The notes under the pieces: generated by a model
Databases searched by the model: none
The model's input: the letters and a program-made list of their open reading frames with translations, nothing else
Told to the model about the DNA's origin: nothing
Translations under genes and position numbers: made by a program
Shown here: in pieces, positions 5,186 to 34,413 of the stretch
How the letters are laid out: each line of letters opens with the position of its first letter
How positions within the stretch are numbered: position 1 is the first letter of the stretch
Assembly: GCA_013289685.1 (NCBI GenBank)
Contig: JABCZL010000006.1
Span: forward strand, 186,001 to 250,000
DNA length: 64,000 bases
Source: Acidobacteriota bacterium
GTDB taxonomy: Bacteria; Acidobacteriota; Terriglobia; Terriglobales; Acidobacteriaceae
Direction of reading: 5' to 3'

Positions 5186-5244
5186 AGCGCTTCACTTTGG
5201 AGACTTCGGCTCACAAAAACTCTAGGTTGCAAGTCCCGGTGATT

Positions 5245-5270
5245 TGTCATCGGATTGTCAAATGTCTGTC
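5245..5270 (-). promoter_or_regulatory. Phased GACA direct repeat upstream of the leftward radical SAM operon
   Basis: On the minus strand GACA occurs at 5270-5267, 5259-5256 and 5248-5245, that is three copies at exactly 11-bp spacing, one helical turn. The element ends 59 bp before the ATG at 5185. The same GACA/11-bp pattern stands ahead of the genes starting at 5474, 9310 and 21395. This reads as a binding site for a multimeric regulator on one DNA face; the regulator is unknown. Confidence 0.5.
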
Positions 5271-5348
5271 ACTTATGACAGCGCTGAAATATGCCATTTT
5301 CGGCGTACGAGGAGCCGCGAATTTCAATGCGATGGCAACCATTGAAAA

Positions 5349-5377
5349 TTGCAGAATTTTGACAAAACTGAGACAAA
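5349..5377 (+). promoter_or_regulatory. 29-bp promoter-type element with phased GACA repeat
   Basis: GACA at 5361-5364 and 5372-5375 (11 bp apart) sits in a 29-bp block that matches 9195-9223 at 26 of 29 positions. The block lies 96 bp upstream of the ATG at 5474. It includes a TTGACA that could act as a -35 box, but no good -10 box is found 16-18 bp downstream, so a regulator-binding role is favoured. Confidence 0.55.
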
Positions 5378-5473
5378 CCGCCGCCTCGCAATTGGTAGGT
5401 TAGCTGCCGTACTAAATCTCAAATCGTGGGCCGGTCTTGCCGGTGCAACACCGGTGGGTTTGAGTGTCGGCAG

Positions 5474-6937
5474 ATGATCCTTTTCTATAATCCGAAAGCA
5501 ACCCGGCCGCGCAATCGCCGATTTCCTTTGTCGATTCTAGCCATCGCAGCGGTTGTGGAAGGCAAAGAAGAATACGCCATCGTCGATGGCAATCTCGACC
5601 CACATCCCACTGAAAGTCTCATTGCCCTCATCAAGGAACGCGGAGCAGAACTCCTTGCGGTTACGGTCATGCCGGGGCCGCAGACCGTCGGCGCAGTGGC
5701 AAGCTGTCGCGAAATTCGCGCTCGGTTTCCCCAGTTGCCCATTGTTTGGGGAGGCTATTTTGCCTCCAACTACACTGCCGCCGCACTCAACGCGAACTAT
5801 GTGGACTATGCGGTGCGAGGCCAGGGGGAGCAGACGTTCCTCGAACTGCTCGAAGTAATTCGCGGACACCGCGACCCCAAAGACGTTCCCGGACTCTCCT
5901 ACAAAACTCCCGACGGGACGATGCGCCAGAATCCGGAGCGCCCCATGCGGAGTCTCGACGACTTCCCCTGGTATCCGTATCACCGCCTGCCCGCGGAGCA
6001 ATACCTTCTACCCACGTTTCTAGGCCGGCGGACAGCGGTTCATCAGGCCAGCCTGGGTTGCCCTTATCGCTGCAGCTTCTGCGGCGTGGTGAACTTTTCC
6101 GGCAGCCGGGAAAAGATGGAAGCGCCCGCCCGCACTGAAGGCATGCTGCGGCATCTGGTCAAGACTTACCGAGTCGACGCCGTACAGTTTTACGACAACA
6201 ACTTCTTCCTGAAGGAAGACCACACCCGGGAACTCGCGGACCGCCTGGCGCCGCTCAATCTGCGCTGGTGGTGTGAAGGGCGAGCCGACATCATGATGAA
6301 ACATTCGGACAGCACGTTAGAGGCGCTGCGACGGGCCGGCTGCACCATGATTTTCTTTGGGGCGGAGTCAGGCTCAAACGCAATCCTGAAGGAGATGAAC
6401 AAAGATCTCCGTGCGGAAGACACTCTGGCGCTGGCTTCGCGCATACGGCGGTTTGGCATTATCCCCGAATTCTCCATCATCTTTGGAAATCCGAAAGATC
6501 CGGAAGGCGACACTCGCGATTGCATCGGGTTTATACGGCAACTGAAGCGCTTGAATCCCGATGCCGAGATCATCGTCGAACACTACACTCCTGTGCCACA
6601 GCGCGCTCGCATGTACGGTGAGGTGGAGGACAAAGTTCAGTTTCCGACAACGCCCGACGAATGGGCGACGGAGCACTGGCAGCGTTTCGCCACGCAGAAA
6701 GACCCGCAGACACCATGGCTGCGACCTACCACGAAACAGTTGATCGACAATTTTGAGCTGGTGGTGTCGTCCCGTTGGCCGACGGTCCAGGACATAAGAT
6801 TGCCGAATTGGGGGCGACTCGCGTTGAAAGCGCTGAGCAGTTGGCGCTATCGCCTCGGAGTGTACGGATCGCCGCTGGAATTGAAATGGATGCAGCAGGT
6901 CATCGAATTGCGAAAACCGAAGGCAGAGAGCCTGTGA
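5474..6937 (+). CDS. B12-binding-type radical SAM protein
   Basis: The ATG at 5474 (MILFYNPKATRPRNRRFPLS) is preferred over an upstream in-frame ATG at 5426, because homology-like sequence begins here and the other radical SAM proteins start with the same hydrophobic strand. The 487-residue product has a B12-binding-like domain (about 1-150; VWGGYFASNY, YAVRGQGEQTFLELL) and the radical SAM motif SLGCPYRCSFC with Cys 196, 200 and 203. IFFGAESGSNAILKEMNKDL follows in the barrel. A methyltransferase gene overlaps its stop codon by 3 bp. Substrate unknown. Confidence 0.9.
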   Translation: MILFYNPKATRPRNRRFPLSILAIAAVVEGKEEYAIVDGNLDPHPTESLIALIKERGAELLAVTVMPGPQTVGAVASCREIRARFPQLPIVWGGYFASNYTAAALNANYVDYAVRGQGEQTFLELLEVIRGHRDPKDVPGLSYKTPDGTMRQNPERPMRSLDDFPWYPYHRLPAEQYLLPTFLGRRTAVHQASLGCPYRCSFCGVVNFSGSREKMEAPARTEGMLRHLVKTYRVDAVQFYDNNFFLKEDHTRELADRLAPLNLRWWCEGRADIMMKHSDSTLEALRRAGCTMIFFGAESGSNAILKEMNKDLRAEDTLALASRIRRFGIIPEFSIIFGNPKDPEGDTRDCIGFIRQLKRLNPDAEIIVEHYTPVPQRARMYGEVEDKVQFPTTPDEWATEHWQRFATQKDPQTPWLRPTTKQLIDNFELVVSSRWPTVQDIRLPNWGRLALKALSSWRYRLGVYGSPLELKWMQQVIELRKPKAESL

Positions 6938-7713
6938 GCGTTGCGACCAATATCGATCGTGATTTTGTTACCGATAGTAAACATGAACATCCCGCGCCCG
7001 GCGCGTCTCGCACAGTCCGTGCCGCGGAGGGTTATGAATGTTGGGCTCCCATCTATGACCACGCTCCCAATCCACTCTTGGCACGTGAAGAACGTCATCT
7101 GTTGCCTTTGCTCACCGACCTTCGCAACAAATCGACCCTGGACTTGGCGTGCGGCACAGGCCGTTGGCTGGAGAGATTAATGACGCACGGCTGTGAATCG
7201 GGAATAGGAATTGATTGCTCCAGCGCGATGCTGCGAGTCGCAAGAAAGAAAACTGCCATCCGAGGGCGACTCGCAACAGCGGACTGCGAGCAGCTTCCCC
7301 TTCCCAACGCAGCCTTCGATCTGACGATTTGTTCATTCGCGGTGGGACATATCCGTGACTTGGAATCCATGGTGCGCGAGTTGGCACGCGTGACGAAACG
7401 TGGAGCGGATATCTTCGTGAGCGATCTTCATCCTGAAGCCTACGCGCATGGTTGGCGGGTCGGTTTTCGGGACCGCGGCACGGCTGTTCAAATCGACATG
7501 CATTCCCGCACAGCTGAGGAGATCGTGCGCGTCTTTTGCACCAACGGCTTCAAGTGCGAAACGCATGAGCCTCTTTGGCTAGGCGAACCAGAAAGGCCGC
7601 TTTTCGCGCAAGCCGGCAAGTCTCATTCCTTCGTAGAGGCTTGCAAATTACCCGCAGTCCTCGTTTGCCACTTCCGGCGGCTTGGATCATCGGACCGACC
7701 GAGTGCAGAATGA
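6934..7713 (+). CDS. SAM-dependent class I methyltransferase
   Basis: The reading frame is open from further upstream, but the GTG at 6934 overlaps the stop of the radical SAM gene (GTGA arrangement), which fits translational coupling and gives a normal 259-residue methyltransferase. Motif I is STLDLACGTGRWLERL and the acidic loop is GIGIDCSSAML. Later elements (CEQLPLPNAAFDLTICSFAVGHI, LARVTKRGADIFVSDLHPE) are typical of Methyltransf_11/25. It mirrors the methyltransferase at 1-719, which also sits directly behind radical SAM genes, so both operon arms pair radical SAM enzymes with a methyltransferase. Substrate unknown. Confidence 0.88.
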   Translation: MSVATNIDRDFVTDSKHEHPAPGASRTVRAAEGYECWAPIYDHAPNPLLAREERHLLPLLTDLRNKSTLDLACGTGRWLERLMTHGCESGIGIDCSSAMLRVARKKTAIRGRLATADCEQLPLPNAAFDLTICSFAVGHIRDLESMVRELARVTKRGADIFVSDLHPEAYAHGWRVGFRDRGTAVQIDMHSRTAEEIVRVFCTNGFKCETHEPLWLGEPERPLFAQAGKSHSFVEACKLPAVLVCHFRRLGSSDRPSAE

Positions 7714-9106
7714 ATTCTCCACGAACACGCTGCCCAATCGCGCTGCGACGCCCGTTGGAGGTGCATGGGTGAAGCCCACTCCAGTTGAGAACGTCGTTGG
7801 ATTCCTGAGTTTCTCGCGCGACCACCGCGATCGAGTCAACGCGATTGAGACGTTCAGTCGCCGGGAGTGGAATCATGTTCTGCAGTGGCTGGACGACGCA
7901 GGGTTAGCCTTCTACTTCCTGCAGAGGCTCAAGGACACACACGCAGGCGACGTCGTCCCGCCTGTGGTGCTGTCTCGTCTGGAACGGAATTTCGCGTCCA
8001 ACCAGTTGCGGGTTGATGACATGTCGCATCGATTCGACGCGATCAATAAGAGCTTCGATCATGCCGGCGTGCAGTACGTGGTGATAAAAGGTTTCTCTCT
8101 CGTTCCGCAGTTTTGTCCATATGCTCCCCTCCGGCATCAGGCAGACCTCGATTACCTGGTAGACGAGCAGTCTTTACCGCCTGCATGCCGCGGATTGATC
8201 GACGTGGGTTACAGCTCGCAAAAGTCCCCGTCGAGCAAGGATTCGATCTTTATCATTCCGGGAGGGTCGGCATCACGCGGCGATGATCAATATTCACCGC
8301 AAGCGCCACACGCAGTTGAATTGCACACGGACATAATGGACAGCAAGATGCTCGGGTTGCCGCCGATTCCAAGCCTGTTCTCGGTGGCGCAAGCGAGAAC
8401 GCGTCACTGGAATGGCTTCGCGTTTCCCGCTCAAGCGGACGAGAATGCCTTTCTGCTGCAGGTATTACACGCCTGCAACCATTTCTTCGGTCAATGGATA
8501 CGCATGTCTTGCTTGTTTGAGATCGCTTATTTCCTGCATCGGCGGACTTCGGACACGGAATTGTGGAGGGGGATTGAGCAGCGAGTCGGCGACAGCGCCG
8601 TACTGCGGGAATTCGTCGTAATCGTAACGGAAGTGGCCGCCCAACTCTTTGCCGTGCCCCTCCCCAAGTTGGTGCAAAGTTGGAGCACCACGATCCGTCC
8701 GGGACCTCGCACCTGGATTGAATATTACGCACGGAATTGGGCTTTGTGTGATCTCCCGCGTTACGAGTTTAACTTGTTTCCCAGCGCAAAGCTCGCTCTG
8801 TTTCTCCATCACCAGTACAGAAGCGCATCGTGGGATCTGCAATCCCGGCATCAAAAGGAATCGCTGTGCTCGCGCCTTTCGCGCGTCGCGTCGTCCATAA
8901 AGAGTGACCCCTCCCTTGTTTTGAACGCAGGTTGGTGGAGACGCCAACGCCTGATCCGGCGAACTTTTTATTATGCATCAGCGGGGCTGCGCTACGTCTG
9001 CGAGATTCCGCGCTGGCGGTGGCGGAATCGTGCGCTACGGCAAACCGCCACCGCGGCCTCGATTCCATGGACGGGCGATTCACTTCCGTCAAAAAAGGCT
9101 TCGTGA
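7682..9106 (+). CDS. NTP_transf_5-family nucleotidyltransferase-like protein
   Basis: A 474-residue protein of the uncharacterised nucleotidyltransferase family PF14907. The family signature is visible as YVVIKGFSLVPQF, then APLRHQADLDYLV, that is KG(x)n then R-x-x-D-x-D, where the paired aspartates would bind the metal of a nucleotidyltransferase fold. The ATG at 7682 overlaps the previous gene by 32 bp; a later GTG near 7769 is an alternative start. Such genes are often found in exopolysaccharide/exosortase loci beside HPr-kinase-like genes, as here (19264-21395). The enzymatic product is not known for the family. Confidence 0.75.
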   Translation: MDHRTDRVQNEFSTNTLPNRAATPVGGAWVKPTPVENVVGFLSFSRDHRDRVNAIETFSRREWNHVLQWLDDAGLAFYFLQRLKDTHAGDVVPPVVLSRLERNFASNQLRVDDMSHRFDAINKSFDHAGVQYVVIKGFSLVPQFCPYAPLRHQADLDYLVDEQSLPPACRGLIDVGYSSQKSPSSKDSIFIIPGGSASRGDDQYSPQAPHAVELHTDIMDSKMLGLPPIPSLFSVAQARTRHWNGFAFPAQADENAFLLQVLHACNHFFGQWIRMSCLFEIAYFLHRRTSDTELWRGIEQRVGDSAVLREFVVIVTEVAAQLFAVPLPKLVQSWSTTIRPGPRTWIEYYARNWALCDLPRYEFNLFPSAKLALFLHHQYRSASWDLQSRHQKESLCSRLSRVASSIKSDPSLVLNAGWWRRQRLIRRTFYYASAGLRYVCEIPRWRWRNRALRQTATAASIPWTGDSLPSKKAS

Positions 9107-9194
9107 GCCAGAAAGTATGGGCAATCGTCATGCTTTCGTCACGAAACTAGGCCTGAATTGAACTGGCATGCAGCGGTACCTGGTCGATTGAATT

Positions 9195-9223
9195 TTGCAG
9201 AGTTTTGACAATTCTGAGACAAA
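9195..9223 (+). promoter_or_regulatory. 29-bp promoter-type element with phased GACA repeat (second copy)
   Basis: GACA at 9207-9210 and 9218-9221 is spaced by 11 bp. The 29-bp block differs from 5349-5377 at only three positions, although the surrounding intergenic DNA is not obviously similar. It lies 86 bp upstream of the GTG at 9310. Conservation of a short block ahead of two paralogous genes points to shared regulation. Confidence 0.55.
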
Positions 9224-9309
9224 TGCCGGGCTACCGATTGCTACCTTTTGAATCTCACTTCTTCGCGTTCGATCTGTGATTTTGCTCGTACACGACGAAA
9301 GGCACTGCC

Positions 9310-10821
9310 GTGAAATCGTCGAAAAAAATCGTATTCTTCGTTGCGTCATTCTCCAGCATTGAGGCCACTGCTCCCCTCGGCATCCTTGCCATCGCGACTC
9401 CTCTCTTAGAAGCGGGATACCAGATCTGCATTATCGACGCGTCGATTACTCCGGACTACAAAAAACGAATCATGGAGGAAGTAAAAGATGCCCTCTGCCT
9501 GGGCATTTCCCTGGTCACCGGGCCCATGATTCGCGAGACCGTTGAAGTTGCCCGCGCCATCAAGAAGTGGGACCCTGATTTTCCGATTGTTCTGGGCGGA
9601 TGGCACCCTTCTCTGCTTCCCACGCAGACGCTCGAAGCACCTTACGTAGACATCGTGGTTCGTGCCCAGGGTGAGGAAAGCATGCTGGCGGTAGCCGACC
9701 GCTTGCGGGATGATGCTTCCCTGGCGGATGTTCTCGGCGTCGGATTCAAGATCGACGGCAAACTCCACTTCACTCCAGACCGACCGCTAAAGAGGCTGGA
9801 GCAAATGCCGGCCAAGGCGTATCACCTGGCGGACTTTGATGCTTACGAGAAAATCTGTGGCCGCCGCTGGGCCATGTACGTGTCCAGTCTGGCGTGTCCG
9901 TTCAATTGCGCCTACTGCACGAACGCCGGTGTTTACGGACGCAAGTGGAACTGCCTCCCGGTCGAGCAAGTAGTCGCTGAAACCATCGAACTGACGCGAC
10001 GTTACCGCCTCGATCTCTTGTGGCTGGCCGATGACAATTTCCTGGTGGACCTCGACCGTTCGCTCAAGATCGCAGAAGGTTTGATTAAGGCGGGAGCCAA
10101 CTTTAAGTGGAGTATTCAAGCCACGACCAATCTAACAGCTCGTCTCAGCATCAGCGAGTTGACCCTGTTGCGTCGTTCCGGGCTGCATCAGATCTGTCAG
10201 GGGATCGAGACGGCTTCTCCCACCGTCATGAAGCTGATGAACAAAGATTTTCAGGTTCTTGGCGACATCTATCAATCCACGGAGCGTTGCATCAAGGCGG
10301 GAGTGATCCCGTCATTCAACATCATTTTTGGGTTTCCCGGCGAAGGCCCGAAAGAAAGACGCGAGACCGTCAACTTCATGATGGACATTTGCCGGAAGTT
10401 TCCCGGCGCAGAATTCTGGACGAACATCTTTACGCCATATCCGGGTTCGCCAATCTTTCATCAGACGGCCCAACTGGGAATCGAAGTCCCAAAAACTCTG
10501 GAAGGCTGGGCGGACTATTTCCCGCGCTACACGGTTCTGCCCTGGCTCAAAGGCAGCGATCACCAGCGCGTTCAGACCATGCGCGATTACCTGCGCATCG
10601 CCTTCGATCGCGAACCCATCGCCACCACCGGCCACGGACGATTCGCCAAGGCGATTCAGCACCTGACGGCCTACCCGGCGCGCGTACGCCTGAATTTCGA
10701 CTTTTACAGTTTCCCGGTCGAACTGTGGATTAATCGTCAGCTGAAGAACATTGTGAAATTACCCAAGCCGAGCGTGGACGCGAAAAGGCTGCAGCCGGAA
10801 ACGGCGCCGACCTGCACGTGA
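9310..10821 (+). CDS. B12-binding-type radical SAM protein
   Basis: A 503-residue protein starting at a GTG. The N-terminal B12-binding-like domain contains LGISLVTGPMIRETVEVARA and PIVLGGWHPSL; the radical SAM motif SLACPFNCAYC has Cys 196, 200 and 203, with Ala in place of the usual Gly before the first cysteine. ICQGIETASPTVMKLMNKDF and the FTPYPGSPIF loop match the protein at 3680-5185, its closest relative in the window. It is preceded by the GACA-repeat element at 9195-9223 and followed by a 125-bp gap, so it may be a single-gene unit. Substrate unknown. Confidence 0.9.
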   Translation: MKSSKKIVFFVASFSSIEATAPLGILAIATPLLEAGYQICIIDASITPDYKKRIMEEVKDALCLGISLVTGPMIRETVEVARAIKKWDPDFPIVLGGWHPSLLPTQTLEAPYVDIVVRAQGEESMLAVADRLRDDASLADVLGVGFKIDGKLHFTPDRPLKRLEQMPAKAYHLADFDAYEKICGRRWAMYVSSLACPFNCAYCTNAGVYGRKWNCLPVEQVVAETIELTRRYRLDLLWLADDNFLVDLDRSLKIAEGLIKAGANFKWSIQATTNLTARLSISELTLLRRSGLHQICQGIETASPTVMKLMNKDFQVLGDIYQSTERCIKAGVIPSFNIIFGFPGEGPKERRETVNFMMDICRKFPGAEFWTNIFTPYPGSPIFHQTAQLGIEVPKTLEGWADYFPRYTVLPWLKGSDHQRVQTMRDYLRIAFDREPIATTGHGRFAKAIQHLTAYPARVRLNFDFYSFPVELWINRQLKNIVKLPKPSVDAKRLQPETAPTCT

Positions 10822-10946
10822 TTGCTTCAAGCGCTATCTCTCCGCGCAAGGCGACAGCTTATGATGCGGTCTCGGCATAGACCGAAACGCCGCCCTTGAA
10901 AAGGGCGTCGGCCAATCTTGGGCAAGACATTGCGTTCGCTTCCTGC

Positions 10947-13085
10947 ATGCATCAAGCAACCGAAATCCGCCTCAGCACCGACTCTTCTGACATCGATAAC
11001 TTGTCGGCAAGCCCGCCGCCATCACCAAAATTCCTCAATTGGTTACCTGCCGTCGAATGGTGCATAATCGCGATTCTGGCAGTGGCCTTCGTCGGGCTTA
11101 CCCTTGTGCCAGGATGGCGGCATCTGAAAAGTGAATTCCCGGATTACTACCTGGCAGCAGAACTCTATCACCAGGGTACTCCACTCGACCGCGTTTATGA
11201 ATGGACCTGGTTCCAACGTCAAAACGATCACCTGGGAGTGCTCGAAGGTCTGGTAAGCTTTGCGCCCAACCCTCCGACGTCGATACTTCCGCTGCTGCCG
11301 CTGACAAGGTTGAAGCCGCTTGCTGCGAAGCGCGTCTGGATCGTATCGAATCTTGTACTTCTTGCTCTTTCATTGTTCACGCTTCGTTATACGACACTAT
11401 TGGGCTGGCGCCGTCTCATCCTTATCACTCTGCTATGCACTCTTCCGCTCAGGGTCGATTTCATGTTTGCGCGATACTACGTATTGATCCTGTTTCTTAT
11501 CTGCGCTGCTTACTATGTCTCGTACCGAAACAGGCATTGGGCTGCGGGAGTGGTATGGTCCGCTGCAGCGGCAATGAAGCTATTCCCGGCAATTTGTGTG
11601 ATCTTATTCATTCGGAAGCGAAATTGGCGAGCCCTGACTGGCTTTGTGATTGGAGCAATGACGCTTGTGGCCATTTCGATCGGCCTGTTCGGGGCAGAAG
11701 TCCACCAAGTCTTCGTCCGAGAAGTCTTGCCTCAAGCCTCGCGGGGGGACTGGCTCGGGCCTTACTACTTGTCTCAGAACTCCTTTATCACTCTCTGGAG
11801 CCATTTGTTTCTAATGGAACCGGAACTCAATCCGACGCCCTTGATCAATTCGTCCGTCCTTTACGCACTGGCGACGGCAACAACGGTCGCGGCGCTGGTG
11901 TTTGGGTTCCTGATATCGGCAAAAAGCGACAATACTTCACATGCCGAAGCATTGCGATGGGCGGCGCTGCTGCCCCTGATGTTATTGCTTTCCACGTATG
12001 CGAGTGCGGATCACTCGTGCCTCCTGATCTTTACTGCCATTGTTGGTTTTGACGCCTTGCTCGCCATCGGCAACTTCAAGACAGCCTTCACACTCCTTGT
12101 CCTGTATGTGATTGCCGCTGCACCAATACCGCTGAGGATGACGGACTGGTTTCCACACAGGCTCATCGCTATCAGCGCTCTCTACACATTGCTGCTGTAT
12201 AGCTTGTGGGACGATGCGGCTAAGCGGCAGGCAAGGCGCTGGTGGGCTATCGGCGTGATTGCGGTCATGGTTCTAGCAATCCACAACTATCACCTCGCGA
12301 ACCGTACCGAAGACTTCAGCCGCCGCCTGCAGACCGGTAGCAATGGATATCGATTCGCCAATCCTGTTCCTGTGGCCAATGGAGTGGCCTTTACAGAAAT
12401 GGAGATCGATAAGTACCGGCCGATACTTCTCACCAACGGCGCGGCGAACGACATGTCGCTGCCAGGAGATGCTCTCTCGGTTGCTGGCTCGCGGAGCAGC
12501 GATCTGCTCTATTCTGAACTAGCGGGCCAGAGATCACAGCTCGTCAAGATTCCGACTGCAGGCGTTTCCGAAACTATCACCGAAGGCCAGGATCCCGCTC
12601 TGTCACCCAATGGAAAGTGGCTGGTTTTCATCCGAGAGGAGCAAGGAATCCGGACGGGATGGCTGTTGGCAACCGATTCTCCCGGTGCCACTCAACTTGT
12701 TCTGCCAAAAACGTACCAGCCTCTCGACGTAACGGTAACGAATGATGGAGATGTGATCGCAGCCGCTGGAAGCGTCAGTGATCCGCATTTTTTGCTCGTC
12801 CGTCGCGAAACGCCCGAAGTGACACAATTGTCGGATTTTCGCGCTCCCATCAGGTATCCAGCAATATCGCCTGACGGCAAGCGACTGGCATTCAGCCGGC
12901 GCGAGCGCGGGTCGTGGCACTTGTTTGCCAGAACATTGGGAACTGGATCCGAACAACAGCTAACCCACACGCCTTGCAATGCGATTTCTCCCTCATGGGC
13001 AGATAATCACACTCTGCTGTACGCGACCGATTGCGGCCGCGGCGTGGGCTTGAGCGCCATCGCACGCGTCGTTCTGCCGGATTAG
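10947..13085 (+). CDS. GT87 (DUF2029) membrane glycosyltransferase fused to a TolB-type beta-propeller
   Basis: The first about 460 residues form a polytopic membrane protein (roughly ten hydrophobic segments) with the DUF2029/GT87 signature: FPDYYLAAELYHQGTPLDR in the first periplasmic loop, which carries the catalytic Asp of this family, and ARYYVLILFLICAAYY. GT87 enzymes use polyprenyl-phosphate sugars on the periplasmic face. Residues from about 480 hold PD40/TolB repeats (DPALSPNGKWLVFIREEQ, YPAISPDGKRLAFSRRERG, the latter ending in a WHLFARTLGTG strand). The ATG at 10947 is chosen; an in-frame TTG at 10896 would add 17 residues. The propeller may bind a glycan or protein partner outside the membrane. 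The next gene starts 3 bp later. Confidence 0.75.
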   Translation: MHQATEIRLSTDSSDIDNLSASPPPSPKFLNWLPAVEWCIIAILAVAFVGLTLVPGWRHLKSEFPDYYLAAELYHQGTPLDRVYEWTWFQRQNDHLGVLEGLVSFAPNPPTSILPLLPLTRLKPLAAKRVWIVSNLVLLALSLFTLRYTTLLGWRRLILITLLCTLPLRVDFMFARYYVLILFLICAAYYVSYRNRHWAAGVVWSAAAAMKLFPAICVILFIRKRNWRALTGFVIGAMTLVAISIGLFGAEVHQVFVREVLPQASRGDWLGPYYLSQNSFITLWSHLFLMEPELNPTPLINSSVLYALATATTVAALVFGFLISAKSDNTSHAEALRWAALLPLMLLLSTYASADHSCLLIFTAIVGFDALLAIGNFKTAFTLLVLYVIAAAPIPLRMTDWFPHRLIAISALYTLLLYSLWDDAAKRQARRWWAIGVIAVMVLAIHNYHLANRTEDFSRRLQTGSNGYRFANPVPVANGVAFTEMEIDKYRPILLTNGAANDMSLPGDALSVAGSRSSDLLYSELAGQRSQLVKIPTAGVSETITEGQDPALSPNGKWLVFIREEQGIRTGWLLATDSPGATQLVLPKTYQPLDVTVTNDGDVIAAAGSVSDPHFLLVRRETPEVTQLSDFRAPIRYPAISPDGKRLAFSRRERGSWHLFARTLGTGSEQQLTHTPCNAISPSWADNHTLLYATDCGRGVGLSAIARVVLPD

Positions 13086-13088
13086 GTA

Positions 13089-14381: not shown

Positions 14382-14392
14382 GAAAAGGAATT

Positions 14393-14581
14393 ATGGGTAT
14401 CGCGAATACTGCACGGACCACGGCAGCCCGTTTTGGAATCGTCGGCGAATTGTTTTCCTTTTTTTGGAACAACAAAAGATGGTGGCTTGTGCCCATGTTG
14501 GTCGCTCTGTTCCTAATTGGTGCACTCATTCTTCTGGCACAGAGCTCCGCTGTAGCACCCTTTATCTACACGTTGTTCTAG
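14393..14581 (+). CDS. DUF5989 family small membrane protein
   Basis: A 62-residue protein with the DUF5989 layout: a short amphipathic N-terminus (FGIVGELFSFFWNNKRWWLV) and one transmembrane helix (about 33-52). Members are usually found immediately upstream of a carbamoyltransferase and a second small membrane protein, exactly the order seen here. The function is unknown; membrane anchoring or partner recruitment for the carbamoyltransferase is an inference from conserved gene order. Confidence 0.8.
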   Translation: MGIANTARTTAARFGIVGELFSFFWNNKRWWLVPMLVALFLIGALILLAQSSAVAPFIYTLF

Positions 14582-14589
14582 GGCACCCC

Positions 14590-14808
14590 ATGCTCAAGCA
14601 AGTCTGGCAAAGATGGAAACGAATAGCTCGGGCAGTGGGAACGTTTCAGGCGCGAATACTGCTTACCGTTTTCTACGCGGTGCTTGTGCTCCCTTTTGGT
14701 ATCGTTGTGCGCCTGTTCTCGGACCCTTTGCGAATACAGCGTCGGCCTACCCAATGGCTCGAACGTCCTGACGAGACCCACGATCTTCAGTGGGCCAAAA
14801 GGCAGTGA
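14590..14808 (+). CDS. Small membrane protein of a carbamoyltransferase operon
   Basis: A 72-residue product starting MLKQVWQRWKRIARAVGTFQ. It has one hydrophobic helix (ARILLTVFYAVLVLPFGIVV, residues about 21-40) followed by a polar tail containing RPDETHDLQWAKRQ. It begins 8 bp after DUF5989 and ends 3 bp before the carbamoyltransferase. The position and shape match the small membrane proteins (SxtJ-like or unnamed) commonly seen in such trios, but the length is shorter than typical SxtJ proteins. Function unknown. Confidence 0.7.
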   Translation: MLKQVWQRWKRIARAVGTFQARILLTVFYAVLVLPFGIVVRLFSDPLRIQRRPTQWLERPDETHDLQWAKRQ

Positions 14809-14811
14809 ACG

Positions 14812-16590
14812 GTGTACGTCCTCGGAGTTTCCTGCTATTACCATGATGCCGCGGCAGCCCTCCTCCACGACGGAATGCTCGTGGCGGCCGCGGAGGAAGA
14901 GCGGTTCTCGCGGGTGAAGCATGACTTCGGCTTTCCCCGGAACGCAATTCGTTTCTGCCTCGAGCAAGCCGAAATCGAAGGCAGGGATCTGGACTACGTA
15001 GTTTTCTTTGAAAAACCCTTCCGCAAGTTCGACCGCATTCTGATGGCTACCCTGCAGACTTACCCCCAATCTTGGAAGGTGTTTCGCGAGTCTATGATTT
15101 CGTGGATGGTCGACAAACTCTGGGTCGGAACTACGCTCCAAACCGAACTCGGCGTAAGCAAGGACAAAGTACTTTTTTGCGAGCATCACCTCTCGCATGC
15201 GGCGAGCGCCTATCTGTGCTCCCCTTTCGACGAAGCGGCGATTCTTACTGTCGATGGCGTTGGAGAATGGGTCACTGCAGCGTACGGCGTCGGCCAGGGA
15301 AGTGAGATTCGCCTCTTAAAGCAGATTGAGTTTCCTCACTCGCTCGGACTCCTCTACAGCGCCTTCACCGCATTTCTCGGTTTCGAGGTGAACGAGGGCG
15401 AGTACAAGGTCATGGGCATGGCCCCGTATGGCGTGCCTCGTTACGTGGACAAGGTCTGGAGGCTGGTCACGCAGAACCGCGACGGATCCTTTTCGCTGAA
15501 CATGGATTACTTCTGCTTCCACAATTCGACTGACCAGACTTACAACCAACGGTTTGTCGCCCTCTTTGGTAAACCGCGGCCGAGTGAGCTGCAATTTTTC
15601 ACAAAAGTAACGGGTTTCCCGAAGTACTTCGGCGAGCCGCCGGGAAGCTACAATGAACTCTGCTACGTCAATCAGCATTACGCCGACATCGCCGCCAGCA
15701 TTCAACGAGCGACGGAAGACCTTCTGTTGAACATGGCGAACCATCTGCATCGCGACACGGGTCTAAGGCGGCTTTGCATCGCAGGCGGCGTTGCCCTGAA
15801 CAGCGTAGCGAATGCTCGCATCCTTAAAGAGACTCCTTTTGAAGAGCTGTTCGTGCAACCGGCGGCGGGCGATGGGGGCGGAGCTTTAGGAGCGGCTTTG
15901 TGGGCCTACAACAGCTTGCTCGGCAAACCTCGCCTCTTCACCATGCAGCACGCCTATTGGGGCCGCCCCAATTCTGATGCGCAGATTGGTGATTTTCTGC
16001 GTCAACACGCCATCCCATTTCGGCATTTCGATGATGAGAACGAACTGCTTGACCAGGTCGTTGACCGCCTGACGCAAGGCAAGGTTATCGGCTGGTCCCA
16101 AGGACGATTCGAGTGGGGACCGCGGGCACTCGGCAACCGGAGCATTCTTGCTGATCCGCGAAACCCTGGGATGAAAGACATCGTAAACGCGAAGATCAAG
16201 TTCCGCGAACCATACCGTCCCTTCGCGCCCTCAGTCCTCGCAGAATGCGCGGAAAAATATTTTGACCTGCCGCAAGCACAGAGCCACCACCCGGCCCGAT
16301 ACATGCTCTACGTCGCTCCGGTCCGAGAGAGCCAGCGAAGTGCATTGCCGGCGATCACTCACGTGGACGGGACCGCACGGTTGCAAACGGTTTTTCGCGA
16401 CCAGAACCCGCGATACTATCGGTTGATCGAGCGTTTCGGACAAGCGACCGGTGTTCCGGTCGTGCTCAACACTTCGTTTAATCTTCGAGGCGAGCCGATC
16501 GTGAATACCGCAGCCAACGCCTTTCAAACATTCTCCAACAGCGAGATGGATACTCTCGTATTGGAGACTTTCTTGGTGGATAAGAAGTAA
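14812..16590 (+). CDS. Carbamoyltransferase (NodU/CmcH family)
   Basis: A 592-residue enzyme with a GTG start 3 bp after the previous stop. The N-terminal domain opens with VLGVSCYYHDAAAALLHDG and EEERFSRVKHD, and ILTVDGVGEWVTAAYG forms the ASKHA-type nucleotide site. Around residue 320 IAGGVALNSVANARI appears, and the C-terminal domain has WSQGRFEWGPRALGNRSILADPR followed by LNTSFNLRGEPIV (the first string shown without its final four motif residues). These enzymes transfer a carbamoyl group from carbamoyl phosphate to a hydroxyl of a sugar or polyketide, through carbamoyl-adenylate. Length and motifs are complete, so it should be active. The substrate could be a glycan or lipid head group made nearby. 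Confidence 0.93.
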   Translation: MYVLGVSCYYHDAAAALLHDGMLVAAAEEERFSRVKHDFGFPRNAIRFCLEQAEIEGRDLDYVVFFEKPFRKFDRILMATLQTYPQSWKVFRESMISWMVDKLWVGTTLQTELGVSKDKVLFCEHHLSHAASAYLCSPFDEAAILTVDGVGEWVTAAYGVGQGSEIRLLKQIEFPHSLGLLYSAFTAFLGFEVNEGEYKVMGMAPYGVPRYVDKVWRLVTQNRDGSFSLNMDYFCFHNSTDQTYNQRFVALFGKPRPSELQFFTKVTGFPKYFGEPPGSYNELCYVNQHYADIAASIQRATEDLLLNMANHLHRDTGLRRLCIAGGVALNSVANARILKETPFEELFVQPAAGDGGGALGAALWAYNSLLGKPRLFTMQHAYWGRPNSDAQIGDFLRQHAIPFRHFDDENELLDQVVDRLTQGKVIGWSQGRFEWGPRALGNRSILADPRNPGMKDIVNAKIKFREPYRPFAPSVLAECAEKYFDLPQAQSHHPARYMLYVAPVRESQRSALPAITHVDGTARLQTVFRDQNPRYYRLIERFGQATGVPVVLNTSFNLRGEPIVNTAANAFQTFSNSEMDTLVLETFLVDKK

Positions 16591-17192
16591 TGGAAAACAG
16601 GGATCAGGAAATCAGCTTCTCCACTAATCGGTCTTTCGGTGCCGCACCAGGTCAGATCCCTCGCGCAAAGAATCGCCTCTCTGCAAAGCATGCCTTGTTC
16701 TTTGTGTTGGGCCTTATGACTCTATTCGTCTTGTACCACAACGAACAATTCTTCATAGACCACAGGTCAAACACCTGGAAGTTTTTCTCCCCGGTCTTCG
16801 GCAAGCTGATGGTTCACGCCTTGGGAGGTGCGACGGCGTTAGTGCTGGGTGCTGTTCAGTTTTCCACGAGGCTGCGCCAGCATCACCCTGCGGTTCATCG
16901 CTGGTGTGGCCGTTGTTATATAGCAGGTGTGCTGCTTGCGGCGCCCATGGCGGTCTATCTGTCATTCACTCACGGTATACGGACAATGTCGACTGAAACC
17001 GTCGTGCAATCTTTGCTATGGGCGCTTACCAGCTTGATGGCACTTCGTGCAGCCCGAAGACGGAACTTTGAAGTGCACAGGCAATGGGTTATGAGGAGCT
17101 ATGCGGTCACGCTGATATTTGTAGTAAACCGTGTCATACTGGACCTGCCCTTTGCGCCAACCACTGATGTCGGAGCCGAACGCCTGACCTAG
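16590..17192 (+). CDS. DUF2306 membrane protein, apparently truncated by an in-frame amber codon
   Basis: Its ATG overlaps the carbamoyltransferase stop (TAATG). The product has several transmembrane helices and the DUF2306 pattern: LVHALGGATALVLGAVQF-like helix, HPAVHRWCGRCYIAGVL, and a RRNFEVHRQWVMRSYAVTL string near the end. The frame stops at TAG 17190-17192, but reading on in frame gives 25 further residues (TLVVGAVFVPQLIINWQQLF then AQRTL) up to TAA at 17268-17270. Those residues look like the missing last helix of the family, so the TAG is probably a recent nonsense mutation or sequencing error. Function of DUF2306 is unknown. Confidence 0.75.
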   Translation: MENRDQEISFSTNRSFGAAPGQIPRAKNRLSAKHALFFVLGLMTLFVLYHNEQFFIDHRSNTWKFFSPVFGKLMVHALGGATALVLGAVQFSTRLRQHHPAVHRWCGRCYIAGVLLAAPMAVYLSFTHGIRTMSTETVVQSLLWALTSLMALRAARRRNFEVHRQWVMRSYAVTLIFVVNRVILDLPFAPTTDVGAERLT

Positions 17193-17296
17193 ACACTTGT
17201 TGTTGGTGCAGTGTTCGTGCCTCAATTGATCATCAATTGGCAGCAGTTGTTCGCACAGCGCACCCTCTAATCAGAACTCCTGCCCTGCAGGCGATC

Positions 17297-18523
17297 TTAT
17301 TGCATACCTCCGCCGAGCCGCATCACCCGCGCAATGGAATCAGCCATAATCTTGTTGCCACGCGGGTCCAGATGAAACTCGTCGACATATATCGGCTGTC
17401 TTTCATCATCAAATGCATGACCGAGAAACACGAAACTTCCCGACGCTTCAGAACGGCGTTCAGCCTGCTCATAGACGGCTTTGAGGCCACGCCGAACCCG
17501 ACCACCTAACTCTGGGCCACGGGCTTCTTTTAGTTTCTGCTCGAAGGGCACCAGCGGCTTATTTCCATACGCCAAAACTGGCTGCCAGAAGAAATAGGTC
17601 TTGAAGCCGTATTCCTTCGCAAACATCCTCACGATCCTCAAGTTTGATTCGTAGTTTTCGAGGGTTGCCTGAGCCTTGGCAGCCAGTTCGCTACTGGAAA
17701 ACGTCGGGTATTGATCTAGGCTATCGTTCTGCTTTAGCTGAGCGATCAATTGCACGGCGTAAGTCACCTTCAGGACACTCAGCCTGCTGGTCTCGGGATT
17801 TTCAAATTTGGCTCTGATCGCGTCAAAGTTCCAGTGTTTGGTTGGAACTCCGGGTGAGAACCCGCCCACCAGTGATTCATTGACGCCATCATAGAAAATC
17901 GCAACATCAGGCCGCCGCCCAGCCTTGAGCTGCTGCATGAGCAAGATCGCCTCCTGGTTCGTGACATAACCCTCAGCCCCTAAGTTCGTAACCTCCCAAC
18001 AGGCCGAAGAATCAGCATTGAGTTCCCGCGCCAAGTACGATGGGATCGTTGCCCAATCTGGAGTCCCTATTCCATACACGGTTGATCCGCCGAAGACCCA
18101 AACCTTCCGCGCAGTCGTCTTCTTACACGCGTCGCCGGCAGCCTGGACTGTTCTTCGCCACGTCCCCATCTCCACTTCGTCTGTGTTGATGTATTTCCCA
18201 TGCCATTTCCTCACACTCCAAACCGTAAATGGAAGGTAGTTACTGCGGGCTTTGGACCAAAAAGTGGATTGTTCTGCCCAAAACTCGCGACTCCACTTTT
18301 CGTTATCGTAGGCTGGGCTCTGTTGCGGAACGAGGGGATCGCGGTGGAGCCTACCGTAGATGTTGAGCGCGGCGTATGAAGATACCTCTACCAAAATAGC
18401 AATCACAATAAAAGCGGTGAGCGAACGGCCGACGATCGCAAAGAACTTTTCGCCAGCGGCGACTAGGCGGGTATGTTCCACGGTAGCGCTCCCTTCCCCC
18501 TGCGACTGCCGCAACCTGCGCAC
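17297..18523 (-). CDS. Membrane-anchored SGNH/GDSL-like hydrolase (paralogue)
   Basis: A 408-residue protein with a GTG start, one transmembrane helix (about 34-55) and a periplasmic SGNH-type domain. Block I is VWVFGGSTVYGIG with Ser147, block II TNLGAEGYVTNQE, block III FYDGVNES (Glu replaces the final Asp of the paralogue's FYDGLND) and the C-terminal YVDEFHLDPRGNKIM gives the Asp-x-x-His dyad. It is a clear paralogue of the protein at 13089-14381; both share PDWATxPSYxxRELNA and SFVFLG/NFVFLG elements. It runs convergent to the DUF2306 gene and follows the methyltransferase at 18557 by 33 bp. Likely an acyl esterase or transferase of an envelope glycan. Confidence 0.75.
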   Translation of the reverse strand: MRRLRQSQGEGSATVEHTRLVAAGEKFFAIVGRSLTAFIVIAILVEVSSYAALNIYGRLHRDPLVPQQSPAYDNEKWSREFWAEQSTFWSKARSNYLPFTVWSVRKWHGKYINTDEVEMGTWRRTVQAAGDACKKTTARKVWVFGGSTVYGIGTPDWATIPSYLARELNADSSACWEVTNLGAEGYVTNQEAILLMQQLKAGRRPDVAIFYDGVNESLVGGFSPGVPTKHWNFDAIRAKFENPETSRLSVLKVTYAVQLIAQLKQNDSLDQYPTFSSSELAAKAQATLENYESNLRIVRMFAKEYGFKTYFFWQPVLAYGNKPLVPFEQKLKEARGPELGGRVRRGLKAVYEQAERRSEASGSFVFLGHAFDDERQPIYVDEFHLDPRGNKIMADSIARVMRLGGGMQ

Positions 18524-18556
18524 CGTGTTTACCCAACGGCGCAGTGATTTCTTGAA

Positions 18557-19252
18557 CTAGTAGATTCCGGGAATTACCTTTGCTGTGGTCCGCGCGTATG
18601 ATTCATAGGGCGGCCCAAACACTTTCCTCAAATGCCTTTCTTCGACTGCGATCTTATTCAGCAGAAGCAAACCCCAGGCGATGACCAGCAACCATCCGAC
18701 AACGCTTGCAAAGATGAGGGCCATTGCTGCCTTTCCCACAATCGCTGCCGCATACCGTGGATGACGCACGTAGCGATACGGTCCCCGGTTCATCGGTAGT
18801 AGTGTCTGTTGATTTCGACTGAAATATTGCGCGAGGTAGGAGTCGGTCCAGATCTGCCACAAGGTGACCACGAGATAAAGGACGATTCCAAGCGTCTGCA
18901 GCGCAGGACGCGCCAACCCGGGAGTGAGGCGGAAGTGACCGTAGTCGAGGAAGACCGCCAAATCGAGTACCATCAAAACCATCACCCATCGGGGCCCGGT
19001 GGGATCCGAATCTAGCGCCCACCATTGCTTCTTCACTTGGGACGAATAAAACGCCCTCCGACTGGACGAAAGAGAATAAATCGACCCGAAAAAGCGCAAT
19101 GCCAGATAGCCCCCAGAAAAATAATCCAGGTGTAACAAGGGCCGCGGATGGCGCCACTGAGCCAGACAGGACAGTACAAGAAGCAGGTAACCGAGAGAGC
19201 ACGTCAGAGTTGTCCAAAAGCTTGTTTTCATAGTCCTCAACTTCATAGACAC
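18557..19252 (-). CDS. Isoprenylcysteine carboxyl methyltransferase-like membrane protein
   Basis: A 231-residue integral membrane protein with about five helices. The C-terminal third carries the ICMT/PEMT signature GPYRYVRHPRYAAAIVGKAA, then VEERHLRKVFGPPYESYART, where the Arg-His-Pro and the Glu-Glu-x-x-Leu elements form the SAM-binding site. Bacterial members methylate isoprenoid or lipid substrates, and many are uncharacterised. It ends 33 bp before the second SGNH gene and follows the HPr-kinase-like gene by 11 bp, so 17297-21395 is probably one leftward operon. Confidence 0.8.
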   Translation of the reverse strand: MSMKLRTMKTSFWTTLTCSLGYLLLVLSCLAQWRHPRPLLHLDYFSGGYLALRFFGSIYSLSSSRRAFYSSQVKKQWWALDSDPTGPRWVMVLMVLDLAVFLDYGHFRLTPGLARPALQTLGIVLYLVVTLWQIWTDSYLAQYFSRNQQTLLPMNRGPYRYVRHPRYAAAIVGKAAMALIFASVVGWLLVIAWGLLLLNKIAVEERHLRKVFGPPYESYARTTAKVIPGIY

Positions 19253-19263
19253 CTAGACTGCGG

Positions 19264-20373
19264 TCATGGTCGAGTGTTTTGGCTGCCCAGTAGCTCCCGA
19301 CCTGGGTCGGTGTAGTTTTGTGCTGCGAGCAAGTCCCGCATCGTGGCTGCGGCTACGGCGGGGTTACTCCCATAGCGCAACACGTACGCTGGTAGTCCTT
19401 CGAGGGCATTCAGAACCTTGGCCTGCCGCTCGCGAAAACGCTCGTCGTCCTGGAACAGGACACTGTCAGCTAGCAGCCTCGCCAAGTCGTGGCGGGCAAC
19501 CCGTGAGACGCTGGGGATTTCGGAAGCTTGTCGCTCAAGGAAGAGGCAGCAAAGCGGTTGAATCGACGAACCCGAACCGCTCCGCGGACGCTGTTTGACC
19601 AGGTGATAGACGACGAAATCCCGATGAAAGCAGCAATCGGTCCGATCCTTGAGATCCGGAAAGAATTGCAGGGCTTCCGGACGAAAAGTAGCGGGCCAAA
19701 ATCCGCCCCAGCTCCGCAGAACTCCGGAATCAAGCTCTATAAACGCTCCCTCGTCTGAATGGAAGTCGAGCCCAAGTATTTCCGCGGCATAGCTGGCGCT
19801 CGTCTTTCCGCTATTGGCTTCGCCGAACAGCAATATTCCCCTATGCTCGCGTGCCACACAGTTTGCCCAGAGCGGGACGATCCCGAGGGCACCAACCGTC
19901 AAACAAAACAGGTTGTCAAGAAACGGGCTAGTAAGTCCAAGTTTGTCTTCCATGAGGCTTTCGGAAACAAATCCGATCCCCGCCCTCACTTCGAGGTCGA
20001 CTGCCAGGAAATTCCTCTGCCCAAACTGGGCAAAACGAAGTCCGTCGTCCGAGAAGGTGGATCTTCGCGGCCAGGGCTGCCCGAACTTTACGTCCGAATC
20101 CACCACAATCTTCCAGAGAAACTTCGGACACCGGTCGGGTGCTCCCGGATAACGAGCAAACAGTTCAACCATGTGGCTTAGGAGCTTGGGACGGTTCGTC
20201 TCTAAGCGCACCGTGCTTCCCATCACTGGCAGGCAGGCAGCGTAGGGAGTCGACACGAAGCGGCGCATCGGATCGTTCTTGACCTCTTCCGCGTGAACGT
20301 TCTCTCCCATAGCCATCCCTGCTCCCGCATGCATCGCAGTTTGGATCGAAGGAGTGCCGACAGCATGTTTCAT
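19264..20373 (-). CDS. HPr-kinase-like P-loop protein
   Basis: The ATG at 20373 is chosen because the longer frame (to 20502) would overlap the upstream gene. In the 369-residue product the Walker A motif is LLFGEANSGKTSAS (184-191), followed by LGLDFHSDEGAFIELD at 202-215, in which Asp-Glu corresponds to the Asp-Asp/Glu of HPr kinase/phosphorylase catalytic loops. The N-terminal half is poorly conserved. Such HprK-related proteins occur in exosortase/EPS and peptide-modification loci, but no HPr or PqqD-like partner is found in this window. The protein may phosphorylate a small molecule or peptide. It is a paralogue of the next gene. Confidence 0.75.
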   Translation of the reverse strand: MKHAVGTPSIQTAMHAGAGMAMGENVHAEEVKNDPMRRFVSTPYAACLPVMGSTVRLETNRPKLLSHMVELFARYPGAPDRCPKFLWKIVVDSDVKFGQPWPRRSTFSDDGLRFAQFGQRNFLAVDLEVRAGIGFVSESLMEDKLGLTSPFLDNLFCLTVGALGIVPLWANCVAREHRGILLFGEANSGKTSASYAAEILGLDFHSDEGAFIELDSGVLRSWGGFWPATFRPEALQFFPDLKDRTDCCFHRDFVVYHLVKQRPRSGSGSSIQPLCCLFLERQASEIPSVSRVARHDLARLLADSVLFQDDERFRERQAKVLNALEGLPAYVLRYGSNPAVAAATMRDLLAAQNYTDPGRELLGSQNTRP

Positions 20374-20426
20374 ATTCCCGTACCCACTGTCCCGACTTTC
20401 GCTCGTTCGCCCCTGGCTTTGGATCG

Positions 20427-21395
20427 TCAGAATTCCGCAAGATGCCGGGAAATCTGGCGGGCGACCAGGTGGGGCTGCCCCCCATACTGTAAGAGCCAGC
20501 ATGGAAGTTCGACTACCCCCTTGAGTGTCCTCGAGCGCCTCGCCGCTGCTTCGGGAAGTTCCATCGTCAGTTCACGTTCCAGCCGGCTCAGCGCCTCTCT
20601 GGACGACATTGAACTCAAGCGGAATTCCGAAGTGTCCCGTCGGTCCAAAAAGATCAGTGAGGTTGGTCGACATTGTCGCACCCGTTTCACTCCGATAATC
20701 TGTTCGGGTTCAAGCCAAAAAGCCGGGTCCCCGCTCCGCCTATCGATTAAGCGCTCCCTCTGCAATTCGTCAAACCATAGGGTCGCTTCAGGGCGCAATT
20801 TGAGAGGAGTTGGCATACCCCAGCTTTGTATTTGAGCTTTCTCTAACGAGCAAAACGTGCGGTCGTCCGAAAGGAACCCGAAACCCTGTTGGGAGAGTGC
20901 TAGTGCCAGCGTCGACTTTCCAGACCCAGACGGACCGGCCACGAGTACGCCGTCCTGCTCCTTCGCGACACAAGCACAGTGCAATTCCGCAATGCCCACC
21001 GACGCGCTCACCACCGTGAGCAGCATGGGGAAGATCACGGCCTGCCAATATGCAAGATCCGAAGCCATGCCCGTCGAGAATCGCCCGATGACGCTACATG
21101 TACGAAGATCGGCCAGCATCGAACTTCCCTCGTCAAAGCCTGCAAAGACGAGATGGTCCAGTCCCCTCACGTACGGCTTCGGCCAAGGCGGTTGTGATGC
21201 GTCCGTATCGTCAACCCAAAACCGTAGGCGGAAGTCGGCCGGGCCTGGCTGAACTCCAAGCGCATGGAACGTGTTGCGTGCGGCGTCGAGCACCCGCTCG
21301 GAATTGGTCGAAAGACTGCAGAGCGCGCCGGCTGCGATGTAATGTTCGCAGAGCTTCGTCTCAGCGTCCTTGTGCAAGAAATCCGGGGGATGCAT
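20427..21395 (-). CDS. HPr-kinase-like P-loop protein (paralogue)
   Basis: The ATG at 21395 (MHPPDFLHKDAETK) has a GGAAAG ribosome-binding site 7 bp upstream and is preferred over the ATG at 21443. In the 322-residue product Walker A is VLVAGPSGSGKSTLA (154-161) and the second acidic loop is FGFLSDDRTFC (175-179), closer to true HPr kinase than in the paralogue. The end PCWLLQYGGQPHLVARQISRHL resembles the partner's PAYVLRYGSNPAVAAATMRDLL. It is the first gene of a leftward operon with the paralogue, the ICMT-like enzyme and an SGNH protein. A GACA/11-bp element sits 73 bp upstream. Confidence 0.78.
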   Translation of the reverse strand: MHPPDFLHKDAETKLCEHYIAAGALCSLSTNSERVLDAARNTFHALGVQPGPADFRLRFWVDDTDASQPPWPKPYVRGLDHLVFAGFDEGSSMLADLRTCSVIGRFSTGMASDLAYWQAVIFPMLLTVVSASVGIAELHCACVAKEQDGVLVAGPSGSGKSTLALALSQQGFGFLSDDRTFCSLEKAQIQSWGMPTPLKLRPEATLWFDELQRERLIDRRSGDPAFWLEPEQIIGVKRVRQCRPTSLIFLDRRDTSEFRLSSMSSREALSRLERELTMELPEAAARRSRTLKGVVELPCWLLQYGGQPHLVARQISRHLAEF

Positions 21396-21468
21396 ATAGA
21401 GTCTTTCCGGCCAAGCGGGAAAGCCCCTCCGAAAAACGCACAATTTTCGCCGAGCCGGGTGAGCGGCT

Positions 21469-21483
21469 TGTCACGTTCTTGTC
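21469..21483 (-). promoter_or_regulatory. Phased GACA repeat upstream of the HPr-kinase-like operon
   Basis: On the minus strand GACA lies at 21483-21480 and 21472-21469, 11 bp apart, embedded in TTGACAAGAACGTGACAAG. It is 73 bp upstream of the ATG at 21395 and matches the pattern found at 5361, 9207 and 5245-5270. Confidence 0.5.
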
Positions 21484-21712
21484 AACAACTTGTAACCTTT
21501 TCATTGGCGGGCTGCGGATATTCTGGCCGGCGCTGTCACGTTCCAATTTTGCGTTCTTTTCTTTCTGGTCGGCCAACCTCTCGAACCTTGCCGGCAACCT
21601 TTAACAAAACGAGCACGGTCTCACCTCCGTGAGGATCGATGACAAGATGTTTCTACAGGCTCCTGGTGCACTTAGAAACTGCTGACGGGTCGTTCCAATT
21701 CGGGATTTTTAT

Positions 21713-21738
21713 GACAGTTTATTTACATTTCTCAGACA
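21713..21738 (+). promoter_or_regulatory. Degenerate phased GACA repeat facing the nusG-like gene
   Basis: GACA at 21713-21716 and 21735-21738 are 22 bp (two helical turns) apart, with TACA at 21724-21727 on the intermediate 11-bp phase. The last unit is part of CTCAGACAA, close to the CTGAGACAA of the two rightward elements. It lies about 375 bp upstream of the gene at 22113, so its target is less clear. Confidence 0.35.
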
Positions 21739-22027
21739 ATTCCGTACTGCAGGCGGGGTATTCTCTGCTCGCTACTAACTGTTCAGGTTGTTGCGTGCTG
21801 CTCGTGATTCAAGATAGAAGTCCCGGCCTCGGCCTGAGGATAAATTCTCGTCCCCTTTCGTCGAGTCGTCTTCATCGTACGAACACGGATTCAACAGCCG
21901 TTCGGATGCAGGCATCCTAGTTGCTGTCGTGGGAATTCAGCCTTCGTTCGCACGTGCCAACTTAACGGGCCACCTGCAAGAGAGCGCCGGATGTGCGTTC
22001 TTGAAGTTGGTAAGTACAAGGGTTTAG

Positions 22028-24549: not shown

Positions 24550-24606
24550 ATTCACCTGGATGGTCCGGCAAATTGCGCGCTGTTGCTTGCAAGTATCTGA
24601 AAAATA

Positions 24607-24650: not shown

Positions 24651-24674
24651 GCACCTAGCCGACGAAGGATCGGA

Positions 24675-34391: not shown

Positions 34392-34413
34392 CGAATCGGG
34401 GAACGCCGGGAAA

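Follow-up and report, generated by a model that had tools for sequence, protein, structure and literature searches.

A candidate OmpR/PhoB-type operator of 11-bp direct repeats joining radical SAM, HprK-like, polysaccharide and surface-protein genes in acidobacteria

Introduction

Response regulators of the OmpR/PhoB family bind direct repeats composed of a 7-bp motif and a 4-bp spacer (PMC4832192), and head-to-tail repeats with an 11-bp period are typical of this family (PMC4832192, PMC4415409), as in the Pho boxes of PhoB and of cyanobacterial SphR, which contain two or three such units (PMC4415409, PMC1906773). A different conserved DNA site, that of the PrsK/PrsR pair of PEP-CTERM/EpsH systems, stands before many genes for secreted proteins and occurs together with polysaccharide clusters (Haft 2006, PMC1569441). 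Here we analyze a 64,000-nucleotide stretch (the window) of the genome of an Acidobacteriota bacterium of the Acidobacteriaceae (GenBank assembly GCA_013289685.1, contig JABCZL010000006.1, positions 186,001 to 250,000), in which a sequence-only reading had noticed GACA words spaced 11 bp apart ahead of four transcription units.

The window contains arrays of three TGACA-like units followed by a putative -10 box. They share with the PhoB and SphR boxes the 11-bp head-to-tail repetition and, with PhoB, a place upstream of a TAN3T/A -10 box, whereas their unit is TGACA rather than CTGTCAT or CTTAACCT, and their TGACA core lies 20 bp from the -10 box, compared with the 10 bp quoted for the 8-bp units of PhoB (PMC4415409, PMC1906773). 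The layout of a 7-bp motif with a 4-bp spacer, suited to tandem binding, also recalls PhoP of Mycobacterium, whose three- and four-unit sites are bound better, although the PhoP motif (TCACAGC), the organism and the targets are different (PMC4832192).

Results

Five repeat arrays with a fixed -10 box in the window

All the GACA pairs at 11-bp spacing reported earlier were found again (minus strand, 5245-5259 and 5256-5270; plus strand, 5361-5375 and 9207-9221; minus strand, 21469-21483), and the four sites that they mark are real, although a fifth, site E, had been missed (Table 1). In five out of five arrays, a third unit is present and a TANNNT-like hexamer begins exactly 20 bp past the last unit, with GAAAAT in this place at site D; site C is a near-copy of site B. 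When the window was scanned for three TTGACA-like units with a score of at least 14, period 11 gave five matches and every other period from 7 to 19 at most one, compared with a mean of 0.4 and a maximum of 2 in 10 shuffles; these five matches represent three arrays (A and D on both strands, E once), as B and C score below 14. The bare pair GACA-N7-GACA occurs seven times in the window against 2.17 expected, a number reached by 2 of 100 shuffles, and two of these pairs, at 35061 and 48244, were rejected as arrays, since they fall within open reading frames (ORFs; 34345-35895 and 47578-48690) and did not score as arrays. In two relatives (G004 and G016), arrays A to D are preserved almost unchanged although their flanks diverge, with orthologues of site D present in both, while the repeats of site E are kept in G016, its -10 region less so, and G004 gave no alignment for this site.

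The position of the -10 box was assessed in in-genus arrays that had been gathered without requiring it (28 arrays, 27 of them distinct as L152 and L175 are one array counted twice; site A is included as L153, and the other-family L169 and L170 are omitted). NANNNT was present at exactly 20 bp in 25 of 28 and TANNNT in 16 of 28, compared with no more than 5 and 1, respectively, at the other offsets (45 tested), and the consensus was TANNCT-like. A weak fourth repeat was also apparent upstream, with a C at the expected place in 78 of 127 cases. The third unit was rejected as a -35 box because 20 bp from the -10 box is too far; as it nevertheless lies near the -35 position, an activator that substitutes for the -35 box is the natural reading. 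A special sigma factor that reads the whole composite directly as a long promoter, with no activator site involved, would explain the fixed distance to the -10 box, but the three units lie one helical turn apart, the third is out of reach for a normal -35, and the two-unit version at the regulator gene described below lacks that spacing, which makes this explanation very improbable. A scan for consensus sigma-70 promoters between 5000 and 22000 gave 6 sites, where shuffled sequence gave 7.9 on average; none of the six uses a -10 box proposed here, and only one (21711) overlaps an array, inside the repeats of site E. No Rfam family matched the window at the gathering threshold.

The composite signal recurs across related genomes

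Counting GACA(N7)GACA across the genome, as the sequence-only reading had proposed, yielded 98 occurrences compared with 81 of the reversed pattern, a weak excess that is not specific enough, and the bare pair was therefore rejected as a marker of the regulon. We instead searched for a composite of three TGACA-like units at 11 bp, a gap of 20 bp and a TANNNT -10 box, with the reversed pattern as control. In the window's own genome, this composite had 14 matches with up to 3 mismatches and the reversed pattern had none. With up to 2 mismatches allowed, 61 relatives yielded 134 matches and 1 for the control, a few of the 134 being the same array in a shifted register; in 151 class genomes, 35 of them positive, the counts were 103 and 1. 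Related genomes are not independent in these counts, and G109, G144 and G148 are near-duplicates at the array sites. The positive genomes among the 61 relatives were 36 of 37 from the same genus, 1 of 14 from a sister family and 1 of 10 from other families. The small excess of the bare pair would be compatible with chance clustering of a short word, but the composite counts and the conservation of the arrays refute this for the composite, and its probability is negligible. A weight matrix was used as a scanner only, because it was built from sites chosen by pattern and its core columns are biased. In one sister-family genome (L169 in G043), TGACATC-type repeats with a palindromic tail match the array pattern and resemble a different repeat.

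Arrays lie mostly between genes, ahead of genes for secreted-looking proteins

Placement and secretion were counted for 122 of 126 sites, leaving out a simple repeat (L145) and the window sites (L001, L005 and L006). Only 11 of the 122 sites fall within ORFs of at least 150 amino acids (aa), compared with a random mean of 87, and a same-strand ORF starts within 160 bp of 82 sites, compared with a random mean of 11.6. By a home-made hydrophobicity rule, 76 of the 82 downstream proteins have a signal-peptide-like start, compared with 65 of 242 neighbours. The target families, for each of which one representative was examined, comprise choice-of-anchor Z lipoproteins, TIGR03118, NHL-like, kelch, delta-60 and GloVer repeat proteins, and a ferritin-like family with a twin-arginine-like start. 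In two genomes of other genera, arrays precede the same kinds of genes as in the window: HprK-like and B12-binding radical SAM genes of one polysaccharide cluster (G188), and an HprK-like gene and an SLBB polysaccharide-export gene (G144). Arrays were additionally seen before nrdR-like genes in three genomes (L094, L110 and L019:5626), an unexpected non-secreted target; of these genes, that of L019 alone has a Pfam match.

The avoidance of ORFs and the recurrence in relatives bear out what had been expected of a genuine signal, and conservation, composite enrichment and the G188 and G144 arrays lend good support to a regulon of activator type that connects the radical SAM genes with the HPr-kinase operon. 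The regulon proved to be much larger than supposed, consisting mostly of secreted proteins together with the polysaccharide region.

These targets also bear on the idea that the arrays are Pho boxes of an ordinary phosphate regulon under PhoB. They have the 11-bp direct-repeat layout and TAN3T -10 box of PhoB (PMC4415409, PMC1906773), one own-genome match precedes a phosphoesterase gene, and a three-unit match without a -10 box (C3:176586) is located on the 3' side of a PhoU match, 123 bp beyond the low-coordinate end of the latter. The targets are, however, mostly polysaccharide and secreted surface-protein genes rather than phosphate-uptake genes; no composite site with a score of at least 17 was found in 54 kb comprising three 18-kb PhoU regions (L248-L250), and two response regulators near PhoU genes (L180 and L181) have neither an array nor a two-unit box. 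We therefore consider a phosphate regulon very unlikely.

A candidate response regulator encoded outside the window

The genome contains 25 loci for winged-helix proteins (PF00486), and a strict two-unit box was found at one of them alone, whether within 250 bp of the frame or anywhere in 3.2 kb per locus. This gene, at C2:438784, encodes an OmpR/PhoB-family response regulator, and its neighbours encode a HAMP/HisKA histidine kinase, a large envelope-type protein without a Pfam match and a small, weakly cupredoxin-like protein. The same four genes are adjacent in a genome of another family (G054), two of them divergent, and this genome also has three sites and the regulator box. Of the regulator's relatives, 44 of 49 with at least 54% identity and 0 of 29 more distant ones have a box with 11-bp spacing in the 300 bp ahead of the gene (78 of 79 loci, L388 being too short), and spacings other than 11 bp gave 0 to 4 of the 49. 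The self-regulation predicted from these boxes is well founded within the genus and uneven outside it.

In the 151 class genomes, two of which belong to the window's genus, the regulator clade and the motif occurred together in 27, the clade only in 20, the motif only in 8 and neither in 96 (P about 1e-10), with up to 18 candidates per genome scored in the clade search; after a recheck of G188, whose regulator is in two pieces with 56-58% identity, the counts were 28, 20, 7 and 96. Proximity was also evident, as 21 of 51 sites lay within 20 kb of the regulator gene compared with 0.4 expected (11 clade-positive genomes with up to 20 contigs), and 31 of 103 did so across all genomes, in 18 genomes. 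Beyond the genus, the putative link between regulator and sites is one of association, resting more on co-occurrence and position. The named close relatives of the regulator come mainly from Candidatus Sulfotelmatobacter and other acidobacteria, and those from Edaphobacter and Granulicella are more distant.

An earlier suggestion had been the NarL-type protein at 22713-23369, which adjoins the polysaccharide region. The window scan found no array ahead of it, and the association detected is with the OmpR-family clade (the distribution of the NarL-type protein itself was not tested), so that control of the sites by this protein appears extremely unlikely and the OmpR/PhoB-family regulator outside the window fits instead.

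Further observations concern the surroundings of the regulator gene. In two relatives, a three-unit array in its upstream region faces away from it (L219:2365 and L228:770), and in a genome of another genus (G110, L306:2186) a degenerate array lies directly upstream of the clade regulator gene, likewise facing away.

A receiver-less paralogue beside the window

A second winged-helix gene of the same genome, which encodes a protein without a receiver domain, lies 4.1 kb left of the window and 9.4 kb from site A, and it alone among the 25 PF00486 loci has a full array. The two other genomes in which the gene occurs have this array as well, with a 21-bp gap, and the three genomes also share the radical SAM cluster. 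The next-best relatives of the protein are the response-regulator clade, and it is 51% identical to the C2 protein. Both the receiver-less gene and the regulator/kinase operon are followed by genes for a large Pfam-less protein and a secreted-looking protein of about 240 aa (L024:5471-8802 and L235:3505-8525), which gives the two loci the look of related modules.

The receiver-less protein, rather than the two-component regulator, may be the working activator of the window cluster, specific to that cluster and using a shared operator. Its closeness to site A, its conserved array, the radical SAM cluster common to its three genomes and its kinship with the response-regulator clade speak for this, but it cannot explain the whole regulon, because 33 of the 34 other same-genus genomes, which lack a close copy, have arrays; we regard this as a real but lesser possibility. 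Tentatively, the receiver-less copy could read the shared operator and, through its own array, form a self-sustaining, signal-independent switch over a two-component regulon for surface remodelling, the operator of which is present in several families of acidobacteria.

Genes downstream of the window arrays

The targets named earlier, three radical SAM genes and an HPr-kinase-like gene, hold as B12-binding radical SAM genes and an HPr-kinase-C-like gene, the latter below the Pfam cut-off; its match to HprK_rel_A (E 5e-13) is likewise below cut-off. Distances of 59-96 bp from array to gene start had also been given, and these depend on the start codon chosen; the longest HprK-like ORF, with its start at 21443, runs into its own -10 box, and the actual start codon must therefore be located further inside. 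The UpxY/NusG-type gene downstream of site E heads the polysaccharide region. A second NusG-type gene (24573-25220) appears similar to it by eye in DNA; between the two, and preceding the polysaccharide genes, lie the gene for the NarL-type regulator and a receiver-like ORF (24169). Between promoter B and its radical SAM gene, the leader 5403-5478 contains, by eye, the nested complementary words CTGCCG...CGGCAG, CTCAAA...TTTGAG and CCGGTG...CACCGG, and it is poorly kept in G004 and G016.

Table 1. Arrays, downstream genes and candidate regulators (window positions unless a contig is given).
Feature	Position	Strand	Details
Site A	5219-5271	minus	TGACA-N6-TGACA-N6-TGACA-N20-TAGAGT; before B12-binding radical SAM gene 3680-5185; 0 mismatches to composite; matrix score 39.4
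Site B	5349-5401	plus	TTGCA-N6-TGACA-N6-AGACA-N20-TAGGTT; before B12-binding radical SAM gene 5426; matrix score 28.4
Site C	9195-9247	plus	TTGCA-N6-TGACA-N6-AGACA-N20-TACCTT; before B12-binding radical SAM gene 9310; matrix score 29.7
Site D	21443-21495	minus	TTACA-N6-TGACA-N6-TGACA-N20-GAAAAT; before HprK-like operon; matrix score 34.1
Site E	21712-21764	plus	TGACA-N6-TTACA-N6-AGACA-N20-TATTCT; 348 bp before UpxY/NusG-type gene; matrix score 26.1
B12-binding radical SAM protein	3680-5185	minus	putative target of site A
B12-binding radical SAM gene	2128-3657		after 3680-5185
B12-binding radical SAM gene	725-2119		after 3680-5185
B12-binding radical SAM protein	5426-6937	plus	putative target of site B
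Methyltransferase	6775		after 5426-6937
NTP_transf_5 protein	7682		after 5426-6937
B12-binding radical SAM protein	9310-10821	plus	putative target of site C
HPr-kinase-C-like protein	20427-21443	minus	putative target of site D; PF07475 E 9.3e-06, below Pfam cut-off
UpxY-family antiterminator (NusG paralogue)	22113-22649	plus	putative target of site E; NF033644 125.5 bits (cut-off 100)
SLBB/Poly_export polysaccharide export protein	25292-28804	plus	region downstream of site E
OmpR/PhoB-family response regulator	G000:C2:438784-439524		candidate regulator; outside the window
Receiver-less winged-helix protein, 127 aa	G000:C6:181471-181854		left of the window

Discussion

The repeats are probably operators of an OmpR/PhoB-family response regulator, most likely the C2:438784 protein, that would activate genes for capsule-type polysaccharide and for secreted surface proteins. 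Judging from the arrangement of the arrays, its winged-helix domains may bind head-to-tail, one per TGACA-like unit, on the three (weakly four) units, and the bound regulator would then take the role of a -35 box and bring RNA polymerase to the sigma-70-type TANNNT -10 box, in response to a signal presumably sensed by the adjacent kinase. The regulator probably also controls its own gene through the two-unit box, and the receiver-less paralogue could drive the window sites without a phosphorylation signal. On our best reading, the regulon joins polysaccharide, B12-binding radical SAM, HprK-like and surface-protein genes and is apparently undescribed, as no description of the motif or regulon was found in the open-licence literature searched, judged from titles and the opening parts of abstracts.

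Several findings weigh against this account. A divergent ORF starts within 160 bp on the other side of 42 of the 122 sites, and of the nine own-genome composite matches outside the window, five lie closely before a same-strand ORF and the other four do not. The units run in the opposite orientation to those of the E. coli Pho box. At the regulator gene, the box is reversed, comprises two units and has no -10 box at a fixed distance, which may mean repression or that it serves the divergent gene. By identity, this box was present in 43 of 44 relatives at 73% or more, compared with 1 of 5 at 54-68%. An independent set of other genera gave 5 of 26 (28 loci, 2 of which could not be placed; other spacings gave 0 or 1), and this scarcity of the box outside the genus lowers our confidence in the account as a whole. 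Finally, 20 of 47 clade-positive genomes had no motif match at 2 mismatches, and no clade regulator was found in 7 motif-positive genomes among the up to 18 candidates scored in each.

An OmpR/PhoB-type regulon of this kind would supply a precisely defined operator that is open to testing, together with a candidate pair of regulator and kinase, in acidobacteria, which are common soil bacteria whose gene regulation is little described in the literature searched. It would also tie genes of unknown role (B12-binding radical SAM, HprK-like, NTP_transf_5 and choice-of-anchor proteins) to polysaccharide production. In Proteobacteria, polysaccharide and sorted surface proteins are known to be linked under sigma-54 and PrsR, and our results suggest that such a link is also present in other bacteria, with a regulator of another class.

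The likeness to PrsK/PrsR lies in the combination of a DNA site, secreted-protein genes and polysaccharide clusters, matched to a kinase and a response regulator (PMC1569441), and extends to one target family found here, TIGR03118, which bears the name PEPCTERM_chp_1. The machinery differs, as PrsR is an NtrC-like sigma-54 activator acting at a -24/-12 promoter (PMC1569441), whereas the candidate here is of the OmpR/PhoB family, with three 11-bp repeats and a TANNNT -10 box. Instead of a sigma-54 promoter we saw this hexamer at a fixed distance, no explicit -24/-12 scan having been made, and no exosortase family matched the ten ORFs searched (nine in the window and one in G004, the rest of the genome not being searched). 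By our test, the arrays would constitute an operator of Pho-box-type logic that does not belong to the phosphate regulon, and the receiver-less paralogue is its most unusual part.

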